From Tepidibacter hydrothermalis (GTDB lineage Bacteria > Bacillota > Clostridia > Peptostreptococcales > Peptostreptococcaceae): a stretch of 64,000 bases of DNA. The stretch spans positions 3,038,001 through 3,102,000 of the forward strand of contig NZ_CP120733.1 of the NCBI RefSeq assembly GCF_029542625.1. The letters run 5' to 3'. Both the position numbers and the translations under genes were made by a program. Below the pieces are notes generated by a model, which saw nothing but the letters and a program-made list of their open reading frames with translations, searched no databases and was not told where the DNA came from. Below are positions 3,244-57,990 of the stretch, one piece after another; positions within the stretch are counted from its first letter, which is position 1, and every line of letters begins with the position of its first letter.

Positions 3244-3870
3244 TTAAGTATCAATTTTATTATAATACTTGCAATACTTATTTACAGAACAATTATTACA
3301 ATCTGGCTTTCTAGCCTTACATGTCCTTCTTCCGTGAAATATAAGTAGATGATGAGCTTTTGTCCATCTATATTTAGGTATAACTCTCATTAATTCAATT
3401 TCTGTTGATTCAGGAGTTTTACAATCAACAAGTCCAATTCTATTGCTAACTCTAAGTACATGAGTATCAACTGCCATAGCAGGAATATTAAATGCATTAC
3501 TCAAAACAACATTGGCCGTTTTTCTTCCAACTCCTGGTAATTTAATGAGTTTTTCTAACTCATTAGGTACATTACCATTATATTCATCTACTATCATTTT
3601 TGATGAATCTATTATTTTTTTTGCCTTACTTTTATACAATCCACAACTTTTTATTATTTCTTGTAACTCCTCTTCTTTTAATAAAGCAAATTCCTCACTT
3701 TTATTATATTTTTTAAATAAATTTTCTGTAACCTTATTAACCCTAACATCTGTGCATTGAGCTGACAATATAGTTGCTATTAAAAGTTCAAATTCTGTCT
3801 CATAATTTAGCTCACACTCTGCATCGGGATAATCATTTTCTAGTATATCTAATATTTTATCTACCTGCAT
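3244..3870 (-). CDS. nth: Endonuclease III (DNA glycosylase/AP lyase)
   Basis: Removes oxidised pyrimidines and nicks abasic sites in base excision repair. The helix-hairpin-helix LPGVGRKTANVVL carries the catalytic lysine (K117), and the catalytic aspartate is D135 in MAVDTHVLR; the spacing of 18 matches the Escherichia coli enzyme. A C-x6-C-x2-C-x5-C cluster at the C-terminus (CKARKPDCNNCSVNKYC) binds a 4Fe-4S centre. Length of 208 residues is normal. It lies between a DUF503 gene and the VanW gene, in the same direction, with AGGAGGG before the ATG. Confidence 0.96.
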   Translation of the reverse strand: MQVDKILDILENDYPDAECELNYETEFELLIATILSAQCTDVRVNKVTENLFKKYNKSEEFALLKEEELQEIIKSCGLYKSKAKKIIDSSKMIVDEYNGNVPNELEKLIKLPGVGRKTANVVLSNAFNIPAMAVDTHVLRVSNRIGLVDCKTPESTEIELMRVIPKYRWTKAHHLLIFHGRRTCKARKPDCNNCSVNKYCKYYNKIDT

Positions 3871-3879
3871 TTTTCCCTC

Positions 3880-4161
3880 CTAGTAAATATCGGTGTTTAT
3901 GTTAATAATTTCAACCCTTTCATCATTATCTATAAAATTTATAACAGAACTGATGATAGAATCTATGTGTTTATTAGAGTTAGAAACCATACTAACCCCA
4001 ATTATACTTCTTTGCCACTTATCATTTTCGCCAACCTCAGCTATTGATATATTGAATCTTGATTGTAATCTTTGTATTATGCTCTTTATCACATGTCTTT
4101 TTTCTTTTAAAGAATTACATTCAAATATTATACATTCTATTTCACAAGCTCCAACTACCAT
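3880..4161 (-). CDS. DUF503 family small protein (YlxP-like)
   Basis: A 93-residue alpha/beta protein matching the DUF503 pattern: hydrophobic strand, then CNSLKEKRHVIKSIIQRLQSRFNISIAEVGENDKWQRSIIGVSMVSN. The family is usually found near translation genes, but its function is not settled. The start is taken at the ATG at 4161 (MVVGACEIE) because GGAAGTG lies six bases before it; the ATG fifteen bases upstream has no ribosome site. It lies between nth and the Lon-like protease gene, possibly in the same transcript. Confidence 0.85.
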   Translation of the reverse strand: MVVGACEIECIIFECNSLKEKRHVIKSIIQRLQSRFNISIAEVGENDKWQRSIIGVSMVSNSNKHIDSIISSVINFIDNDERVEIININTDIY

Positions 4162-7716: not shown

Positions 7717-8130
7717 ATGATAAAAGTTGTTATACCAGGAAGACCTATAAGCAAATCCAACTTTAAACTTCACAATGTACACGGTCAATCTTGGATGCCA
7801 AAACAGGGAAAACATTCAAGATATGTAGCTTATGAGAATATGATAGCAGGGCATATAAATCAACAATATCAAACAGAGCCTCTTGAAGGTGATATAATTA
7901 CAGTTTTAAAGCTTTATTTTCCTAATAGAAAGATGGGAGATCTACATAATTATCCTAAAAGTATTTGTGATGGTATAGAAAAGAGCGGAATAATAAAAAA
8001 CGATAGACAGTTAAAACCAGTATTATTATTCGACTTTATAGACAAGGAAAATCCAAGAGTTGAAATTGAACTCTATAAAGCATCAGAGTATGATGTTAGT
8101 TATAGTATAAGCAAGAAATCTTTATTATAA
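7717..8130 (+). CDS. RusA-like Holliday-junction endonuclease family protein
   Basis: A 137-residue protein with the RusA fold pattern: N-terminal strand IKVVIPGRPISKSNFK and a central GDLHNYPKSICDGIEKSGIIKNDRQL segment, which aligns with the DxDN...K...DD-Q metal-binding region of RusA. The second aspartate of DxDN is histidine here, so nuclease activity is uncertain. RusA proteins are usually phage genes, but no phage genes surround it. It is one of few plus-strand genes and has GAGGTGA before the ATG. A strong terminator overlaps its last 25 bases. Confidence 0.7.
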   Translation: MIKVVIPGRPISKSNFKLHNVHGQSWMPKQGKHSRYVAYENMIAGHINQQYQTEPLEGDIITVLKLYFPNRKMGDLHNYPKSICDGIEKSGIIKNDRQLKPVLLFDFIDKENPRVEIELYKASEYDVSYSISKKSLL

Positions 8131-8153
8131 AGATTTCTTGCTTATACTTTTTT
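8104..8153 (+). terminator. Intrinsic terminator overlapping the end of the RusA-like gene
   Basis: A 22-bp near-perfect stem (8104-8125 with 8127-8148) is followed by six T. The stem includes the final codons and the TAA stop. Confidence 0.9.
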
Positions 8154-8168
8154 ATTATGCGGATGATC

Positions 8169-8368
8169 AAAACTATATATTAAAATACCGGGAATACAAC
8201 TATATTTTGAATACAGCTAAGTTTCTGTCTTATTAATAATCCTAAAATTTACGAACTCCCTTACGGTCAGACACATAAATTTTTCAACGGATTATTAAAC
8301 GACAAAAACTAAGTTGTATTAATCAAAATATCTAAAAGCATTCCCTAACATTTTAATATATAGTTTTT
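8169..8368 (-). repeat. 200-nt long-arm hairpin element, copy A
   Basis: The ends are an 18-bp perfect inverted repeat (ACTATATATTAAAAT type), and the arms pair nearly throughout. At the apex (8254-8273), read on the minus strand, lies TGTCTGACCGTAAGGGAGTT, shared with copies B and C. Internal helices differ in sequence from the other copies but remain paired. No reading frame of note. It lies in a 516-base gap with copy B in opposite orientation. Confidence 0.75.
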
Positions 8369-8427
8369 AGTATTAGTTTATATTATTAAATAAGATTTTA
8401 TCTCATTTAAACTCTAAGAACTGAACT

Positions 8428-8633
8428 AAAAATACCTCTGGTTAAAATGTTAGCTACTTTTATTAATATTTTTTTATAAAACTCAGATTATGCCGTTTAA
8501 ATATACGTTAAGAAACTTCGTTTGTCTGACCGTAAGGGAGTTTAAGAAGTTTTAGGATATTTAATAAGGCAGAATCTCTAGTTTTATAAAAAATATTAGT
8601 CCAAGTAGCGGTATTTTAATCAGAGGTATTTTT
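8428..8633 (+). repeat. 200-nt long-arm hairpin element, copy B
   Basis: Terminal repeats AAAAATACCTCTG.TTAAAAT and its complement lie at 8428-8449 and 8609-8633. The apical motif TGTCTGACCGTAAGGGAGTT is at 8523-8542. The inner stems (AAACTTCGT with AGAAGTTTT; AAAACTCAGATTATGCC with its partner) pair with few mismatches. After the right end comes TTTTCGCTTAAGCA, also found after copy C. Sits just downstream of the ZIP transporter gene. Confidence 0.75.
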
Positions 8634-8646
8634 CGCTTAAGCATAT

Positions 8647-13989: not shown

Positions 13990-14128
13990 AACTTTTTATC
14001 CCCCTTTATTAAATAGTTCTTGTCCTAAAAGTGATACATTAATATATATTTAGAGGGATTTGCTTTTAGAACAGATTTTGTATATAAAAATTTTCTTATG
14101 GTATTTTATAACTTAAAATACTCATTAT

Positions 14129-14180
14129 AAAAAAATAGCTACATAGATTTCATGCAATCGAAACCAAAGTAGCTATTTTA
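14129..14180 (-). terminator. Intrinsic terminator downstream of nfo
   Basis: An 11-bp outer stem AAAATAGCTAC/GTAGCTATTTT (14132-14142 with 14170-14180) with an inner AGATTTC...GAAACC helix, followed on the minus strand by seven T. Its inner part resembles the terminator after etfA. Confidence 0.75.
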
Positions 14181-14213
14181 GAATTATTTAGGTTATAAAA
14201 AACTTCACTTAAA

Positions 14214-14412
14214 AAACAGAGGGTATTAAAATGTTAGATAATCATTTAAATATTTTTGTATAGAACTTGTATTACATCGTTTGCATATCCGTTAAGAAAG
14301 TTCGTTGTCTGACCGTAGGGAGTTTAGAACTTTTAGGATATTGAATAAGATGTAGTACTTAGTTCTATTAAAATATTTAATGAATTATCGGTATTTTAAT
14401 ACCCTCTGTTTT
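14214..14412 (+). repeat. 200-nt long-arm hairpin element, copy C
   Basis: Perfect 20-bp terminal inverted repeat AAAACAGAGGGTATTAAAAT (14214-14233 with 14393-14412). The apical motif TGTCTGACCGTAGGGAGTTT is at 14306-14325. Inner arms pair (AGAACT.TGTATTACATC with GATGTAGTACTTAGTTCT; AAAGTTC with GAACTTT) although they differ from copies A and B. It lies between nfo and its terminator and contains no gene. The remaining gap back to bcd holds only the terminator and promoter space. Confidence 0.75.
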
Positions 14413-14444
14413 CGCTTCAAGCACAAAATCTACTCATTTATGTT

Positions 14445-15281
14445 TTAATTTTTTTTCAAAAAATCCCTTATCATCTCTATTTCCTTTTTATGACCCTCAT
14501 CATCATAAGGAGTCTCCAAGAAAAATGGAAGATGTTTAAGCTTTTCATGAGTCATAAACTCCATTAAAGCCTTAAAACCTATTTCTCCCTCTCCAATACC
14601 TGCATGTCTATCTTTATTGCTCTTAAACGGCATCATACTATCATTAAAATGTATTACTTTCAATTTATCAAGTCCTATTATTTTATCAAATTCATCAAGT
14701 ACACCATCAAGATCATTTACTATATCGTATCCAGCTGAAAATATATGACACGTATCAAGGCATACTCCAATTTTATCTTTATAATTAATCTTATCTATTA
14801 TACTTTTTATATGCTCAAAATCATGTCCTATCTCAGTACCTTTTCCCGACATAGTTTCAAGAAGTATAATTACATTTTGATCCTCTGTTAAAGATTCATT
14901 TAAAGCATTTGTTATCCTATCTATTCCGAATTCTATACCTCCACCCACATGACTTCCTGGATGAAAGCACATGTATTCTATTTCAAGTTCATCCATTCTC
15001 TTTATATCTTCTTTAAATATTCTTCTTCCAAATTCATATACATCATCTTTTTTACCTCCAAGATTCATAGTATAAGGTGCATGAGCAAGCATTGCTCCAA
15101 AGTTATTTTTTTTTCTTATTCTTTGAAACTCTGCTATATCTTTTTCATTAAATTCCTTTGCATTTCCTCCTCTTGGATTTCTAGTAAAAAATTGAAATGT
15201 ATTAGCGCCTATATCTAAAGCGGCATTAATTGCCTTTGAATATCCTTTTGCTATTGATATATGTGGTCCTATAACTAGCAT
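14445..15281 (-). CDS. nfo: Endonuclease IV (AP endonuclease)
   Basis: Cuts abasic sites in DNA using three zinc ions. The TIM-barrel pattern is clear: [100 protein letters not shown], with the metal-binding His, Glu and Asp residues in place. Length of 278 is normal. AGGAGTGA precedes the ATG. Together with nth it gives two base-excision repair enzymes in the window. Confidence 0.96.
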
Positions 15282-42196: not shown

Positions 42197-42221
42197 AATA
42201 TATATACTAAAACCATATAAT

Positions 42222-42308
42222 CATTACTTCCCTACGTTGGTACTAACCAAATCAGGTTTAAAGAGTTAACAGACAATTCTATCTCTCAGCCAAAAGGCAC
42301 CCCTAGCT
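42222..42308 (-). ncRNA. TPP riboswitch (THI element)
   Basis: On the minus strand the aptamer reads GCTAGGGGTGCC ... GGCTGAGAGATAG ... ACCTGATTTGG ... ACGTAGGGAAGTAA, which contains the conserved CUGAGA, ACCUGAU and GNAGGGA parts of the THI box. It controls the thiD-thiM-tenA-thiT-thiE operon. Confidence 0.97.
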
Positions 42309-42348
42309 TTTATTAAATTATTTTAGACGCTTTCTAAAGTCTGGTTTA

Positions 42349-57744: not shown

Positions 57745-57990
57745 AAAAAACTCTCGTCTCTTAATTAAGAGACGAGAGTATAATTCCCGTGCTACCACTC
57801 TTGTTGATATAGTTTCATATCCACTCATTATCCTTTAACGATAGGTCCGTATCTTCATACTGCTATTTCAGAAGATCTCCTCCATGGCTCTTGTTCAATA
57901 TAACTATGTTGCTGAACTCACACCTACTTCAGCTCGCTGAAACAATCATTATACCTACTCTCCACTTCTTAGGATTTGCGTATTCTCTTT
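57745..57990 (-). ncRNA. T-box leader 1 (complete) of argGH
   Basis: Conserved T-box AGTGGTAGCACGGG (57786-57799), terminator stem CTCTCGTCTCTTAA (57751-57764 with 57765-57778) and, upstream, stem I features GGAGAGTAGG and GAGCTGAAGTAGG. Uncharged tRNA binding should allow read-through into argGH. The specifier codon could not be assigned with confidence; arginine is expected from the genes. Confidence 0.88.

Follow-up and report, generated by a model that had tools for sequence, protein, structure and literature searches.

Three copies of a long hairpin, or rod, lie in the 64,000-nt stretch of Tepidibacter hydrothermalis DNA that was analyzed (the window), and are referred to here as A, B and C (Table 1). 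The 3' end of copy A points at the 3' end of a RusA-like gene, which closes with a terminator-like hairpin of its own, while A and B together form a divergent pair. A ZIP transporter gene has its stop codon only 7 nt from the 3' end of B, with no separate terminator in the gap, and 25 nt separate the 3' end of C from the stop of an AP-endonuclease-family gene (14445-15281). An earlier note on this DNA had described A and B as two oppositely oriented hairpins, and the covariance model R1 placed both where the note had put them, although the real boundaries proved about 5-10 nt wider than it had given; the third copy that it had listed was likewise recovered as a full rod, with a slightly shorter apical motif. 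No further full copies were found in the window by covariance-model search. The folding of each copy from end to end, also claimed previously, was borne out by energies of -72 to -78 kcal/mol, whereas shuffled sequences averaged about -34 to -37 (z about -10) and none of 200 shuffles reached an equally low energy. The apical motif shared by A on the minus and B on the plus strand is exact and not a product of chance, with the 18-base core of TGTCTGACCGTAAGGGAGTT expected 0.04 times in the window at up to three mismatches.

Table 1 Features of the hairpin copies and their immediate surroundings in the window.
Feature	Position	Strand	Basis
Intrinsic-terminator-like hairpin and T-run closing the RusA-like gene (7717-8130); A starts directly after	8103..8153	+	Inverted repeat, then TTTTTT
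Copy A, full rod, AAAACTATATAT outer-stem subtype	8159..8371	-	R1 match 165 bits, E 5e-32; fold z -9.65
Apical motif of A, TGTCTGACCGTAAGGGAGTT	8254..8273	-	Exact
Spacer of divergent pair A/B, with the 5' flank of each rod; TAAGAACTGAACT before B	8372..8426	.	Sequence; spacers of 18 pairs
Copy B, full rod	8427..8640	+	R1 match 203 bits; fold z -9.97
Apical motif of B, TGTCTGACCGTAAGGGAGTT	8523..8542	+	Exact
Copy C, full rod	14211..14420	+	R1 match 203 bits; fold z -10.45
Apical motif of C, one base shorter, TGTCTGACCGTAGGGAGTT, triloop GTA	14306..14324	+	Sequence; loop tally over 139 copies

The gene adjoining A (plus strand) is of the RusA type, a Holliday-junction resolvase, which places a junction nuclease by a cruciform-prone repeat and may be a coincidence. 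Ordinary Rfam matches elsewhere in the window were a T-box leader (57765-57979, minus strand) and a TPP riboswitch (42212-42314, minus strand).

Genome-wide, a motif search gave 43 places, and the R1 model, built on 28 copies, gave at least 149 matches, of which almost all were full length; as 150 candidates were scored in that search, this count is a minimum. The element measures about 210 nt, with insertions of about 250-285 bp where the ends were readable, and mean pairwise identity was 64% among 143 copies taken with short flanks. The copies divide into three large subtypes and a small fourth group located mostly behind rRNA operons, and few copies occupied the 1.2-2.2 Mb part of the chromosome, which faces the presumed origin. 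Chimeric or interrupted copies (G000:C1:2012629-2012842, G000:C1:2889629-2889838 and, in a congener, G003:C1:3279108-3279326) combine two arms of different subtypes or have one arm interrupted by a repeat, evidence that copies recombine with each other. Overall, decayed or chimeric copies were few, fewer than expected of an old passive MITE, and this scarcity could reflect use by the host.

The previous observation that arms are altered yet complementary between copies holds throughout the genome. In an alignment of 139 copies (A2), double changes were found in 52 of 70 base pairs and 96.2% of 9,689 base-pair cells remained paired, while a structure-blind MAFFT alignment gave double changes in 32 of the 70. 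The covariation score was 0.422, compared with 0.143 for shuffles (0 of 500 as high) and 0.05-0.08 for slid arms; A2 was fitted to the model and leans to its structure, yet the slid controls preserve relatedness and score far lower. Among 13 orthologue pairs that look vertically inherited, pairing survived 41 double changes and was broken by 9, with single pair breaks clustering in chimeric copies. The unpaired loops were nearly invariant and among the most conserved parts of the 139-copy consensus, comprising internal loops (ATGTTAG opposite CGGTAT, CGTT opposite AATAAG, and CGTTAAGA opposite TTTTAG) and the apical motif TGTYTGA-SS-(3-4 nt)-SS-GAGTT, whose two-base-pair stem covaries (CC/GG, GC/GC, AC/GT) around a free loop of 3-4 nt. 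A GNRA tetraloop was considered and rejected, as apical loops are mostly GTA, ATA, AAC or GTTA and follow no GNRA rule. These comparisons show that the stems are free to vary provided that pairing holds, and that one strand forms a single rod.

Mispairing was strongly asymmetric between the strands. G·U outnumbered A·C by 668 to 90 (356 to 90 after dropping four G·U-dominated pairs), with 50 pairs leaning to G·U against 7, and the constrained fold is therefore assigned to the strand bearing TGTCTGACC…GGGAGTT; relative to the gene that the rod follows, this is the antisense strand in most copies. Strand-biased mutation during replication is not the explanation because the excess was present in both copy orientations relative to replication (3.4 and 6.1). 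Since wobble is tolerated by both RNA (G·U) and single-stranded DNA (G·T), the excess does not choose between them. Hexamers resembling a -10 element occurred before the stem at register -7/-6 in 30 of 138 copies, compared with about 4 per position, and this promoter-like signal in a minority of copies leans slightly to transcription. For the folded single strand, RNA appears somewhat likelier than single-stranded DNA, a modest lean.

Copies were positioned non-randomly with respect to genes. The gene on the 3' side was transcribed toward the rod in 128 of 149 copies (p = 6e-20). A median of 48 nt separated the rod 3' end from the convergent stop codon, compared with 231 nt between the 5' side and the next gene, and some copies lay behind 5S rRNA. 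Because 60 of these 128 rods are within 45 nt of the stop codon and their flanks carry A/T runs, the outer stem is likely to act as the terminator there; if rods do act as terminators, a repeated element would have set as many as about 130 gene ends in this genome. The close opposite-strand pairs, 18 in number, were without exception divergent, as expected if two convergent genes carry one rod each, and divergent pairs were seen in two other genera too. The leading strand holds 84% of genes, so gene orientation and replication direction are confounded, and the same confounding applies to the folding strand, which is not the lagging-strand template in 120 of 149 copies.

Such placement would also follow if the rods were simply gene 3'-end elements, i.e., terminators or mRNA-stabilizing 3' UTR hairpins of the preceding gene, an explanation we regard as decidedly improbable. 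It fits their location behind stop codons and 5S rRNA, the little space left for another terminator in the 60 closest copies, the T-runs on both sides and the existence of mini forms that retain the outer stem alone (see below). However, G·U is tolerated on the strand antisense to the gene and not on the mRNA strand, termination does not need conserved apical or internal loops, and several copies, including A, come after an intact terminator-like hairpin.

Comparison with a congener that is about 90% identical (G003) provided 60 copies with a readable corresponding site. No full-length counterpart was present in G003 for 31 of these and one or more for the other 29 (tallied by own copies and full-length G003 copies as 21 + 10 = 31 and 19 + 5 + 3 + 2 = 29, respectively). 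Some empty sites were small clean gaps (e.g., 804112, 256850 and 4055244), some G003 sites contained a 67-nt mini form that has lost the interior and retains the outer stem, and other corresponding sites had a different subtype at the same place and in the same orientation. In total, G003 carried some 50 complete or nearly complete copies in addition to short forms, with about ten mini-rod places (e.g., C1:3351184-3351250), a few of which sit where the T. hydrothermalis genome (G000) has a full rod. Copies come and go between related species at corresponding sites, where comparison of two species at most sites makes gain and loss indistinguishable. No regular target-site duplication was seen at insertion ends, which are fuzzy in AT-rich DNA; automatic alignment of insertion boundaries was noisy, with native terminators aligning to the rod outer stem, and few sites gave credible ends. 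Separately, window positions 14124-14188 contain another short repeat, which forms a terminator-like hairpin (AAAAAAGAACCTAGATTTCGTATAAACGAAATCTAGGTTCTT); hairpins of this type recur beside rods, many of the AAAACT subtype (e.g., locus L164 near position 4000), and at some "empty" G003 sites.

Dispersed copies with inverted arms, their presence or absence at corresponding sites and recombination between them (chimeras 2012629 and 2889629) are all features of a passive MITE derived from a DDE-type DNA transposon, in which the arms would be kept complementary by template-switch correction of quasi-palindromes instead of selection on the fold. We consider this origin very unlikely, as correction would erase mismatched internal loops, yet those are the most conserved, and the strand-specific excess of G·U is not predicted; in addition, neither a target-site duplication nor a linked transposase gene was found.

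Beyond this genome, the R1 model matched in 14 of 61 relatives from several families of the order, including four same-genus genomes. The three congeners searched each had at least 39 copies, and the named matching records are Tepidibacter. The apical motif occurred in 9 of 398 phylum-sampled genomes, this genome included, and was found in Candidatus Frackibacter and Clostridium guangxiense. Rods of other genera had almost no stem sequence in common, and CGTNAAGA-like and TTTTAG motifs were present together in 8 of 25 such rods compared with 0.4% in shuffles. Polycladospora repeats that carry the motif were unmatched by the model and may be unrelated, while motif hits within protein-coding genes of unrelated phyla (e.g., L082, L126 and L133) look like chance. 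Nucleotide searches with one rod each gave no plasmid or phage homologues.

Loops kept across genera on unrelated stems could belong to a multi-copy family of structured non-coding RNA genes with their own promoters, whose 210-nt rod RNA would act in trans for the host and which would have spread by duplication. Selection of the fold on one strand with G·U tolerated, the enrichment of -10-like hexamers at -7/-6 (30 of 138 copies) and the small number of degraded copies are consistent with such a family. Conversely, the promoter signal is confined to a minority of copies with no statistically shown -35, and both the large copy-number differences between congeners and the absence at half of corresponding sites would be unusual for a host RNA gene, making this explanation unlikely in our estimation. 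It is similarly doubtful that the rods represent an undescribed, widespread class of single-rod RNA whose members, with unrelated stems in different Firmicutes, would have in common the apical TGTYTGA...GAGTT and the CGTTAAGA/TTTTAG loop, multiply via RNA as a SINE-like retroposon and serve as a two-way terminator.

A mover was sought among genes near the copies and in carrier genomes. No transposase gene or family recurred beside the copies, and a transposon with its gene between divergent rods was rejected on this basis. Matches to Y1_Tnp were limited to a 174-aa frame and a 74-aa fragment in G000 and a fragment in G003, with none in the congener G001 (a draft, with at least 39 copies). RVT_1 was found in all four same-genus genomes and in none of the carriers G066, G332 and G089. 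As both are missing from some carriers, Y1/RAYT proteins and reverse transcriptases (of a group II intron or other RT-borne element) were each discarded as a universal mover.

Taken together, we consider it fairly probable that a non-autonomous mobile hairpin element, about 210 nt long, gave rise to A, B and C. This element would be recognized while folded and single-stranded and, though its behavior resembles that of REP or MITE sequences, would form a family of its own. The alternatives offered in the earlier note, a non-autonomous mobile element or a structured RNA, are supported by the presence/absence differences between species and by one-strand selection of the fold. We infer that a protein encoded elsewhere would bind the conserved loops and spread the element, for which the rod transcript would probably be the substrate and single-stranded DNA less likely. 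The location at gene ends may result from insertion beside, or survival near, intrinsic terminators, and the A/T-flanked outer stem could terminate transcription in both directions. Divergent pairs would then mostly be two such copies, one per convergent gene.

The earlier note had recognized no described family, and Rfam 15 at the gathering score gave no match for the window rods or 20 related loci, with none credible at E up to 10. Where it had named three outcomes that would speak against its reading, the opposite was found in each case, i.e., more copies, covariation far above controls and no Rfam family. Skipping-rope RNA was set aside as it gave no Rfam match, and integron attC sites (GTT-containing loops) were dropped since the copies are dispersed and not in arrays. 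Derivatives of IS200/IS605-type (Y1) elements have a hairpin that is recognized on one DNA strand, produce no target duplication and are oriented with respect to replication. The element described here is similar in having a hairpin on one strand without regular target duplication, but differs in that Y1 matches are lacking in the carrier G001 (a draft with at least 39 copies) and reduced to a fragment in G003. Its folding strand is mostly not the lagging-strand template, an observation confounded by gene orientation. ERIC and bcr1 are dispersed repeats of about 103-167 bp that are predicted to fold, ERIC as a single long stem-loop (PMC2267715); compared by literature description alone, they share the dispersed, foldable character of the element and belong to other lineages.

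These results add a large family of structure-selected dispersed hairpins without an Rfam match, with very clear covariation for a repeat family (52 of 70 pairs). New relative to the earlier note are the approximately 150 copies, the placement at gene ends, the regular occurrence of divergent pairs, the mini forms and the loops on unrelated Firmicutes stems. The strand asymmetry, the loop modules common to unrelated genera and the filled and empty sites make two questions testable, namely what moves long hairpin repeats without a RAYT and whether the folded form is RNA or single-stranded DNA.

Closest in behavior are REP palindromes and the long-stem MRSC-65-2, although the element has the defining features of neither, in the case of MRSC-65-2 as judged by description. 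REP sequences are palindromes of 20-40 bp and include GTAG- and CGTC-tagged REP and BIME (PMC3733652). The element is likewise found behind genes (128 of 149 copies) and in pairs (18 divergent), but is far longer (about 210 nt) with several conserved loops, has no GTAG or CGTC tag in its subtype flank consensus, and its genome has no RAYT-size transposase. MRSC-65-2 is a single long covarying stem with dozens of copies per genome that is thought to be selfish, with RNA or DNA left undecided, and its description gives UYCCGG as a conserved repeat (Narunsky et al. 2024, PMC11109978). A long covarying stem and many copies per genome are shared with the element, whereas UYCCGG is absent from the 139-copy consensus, which sets the two apart as far as the motif description goes; the element may be present, without a name, among the other repeat candidates of that study (250 in its table). 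At two further loci (L152, positions ~3900-4000, and L192, ~3760-3900), a hairpin repeat TATCCAGAAGCTGT...TTAGCTTCCGGATAA with TTCCGG was observed that might be of the MRSC-65-2 kind.
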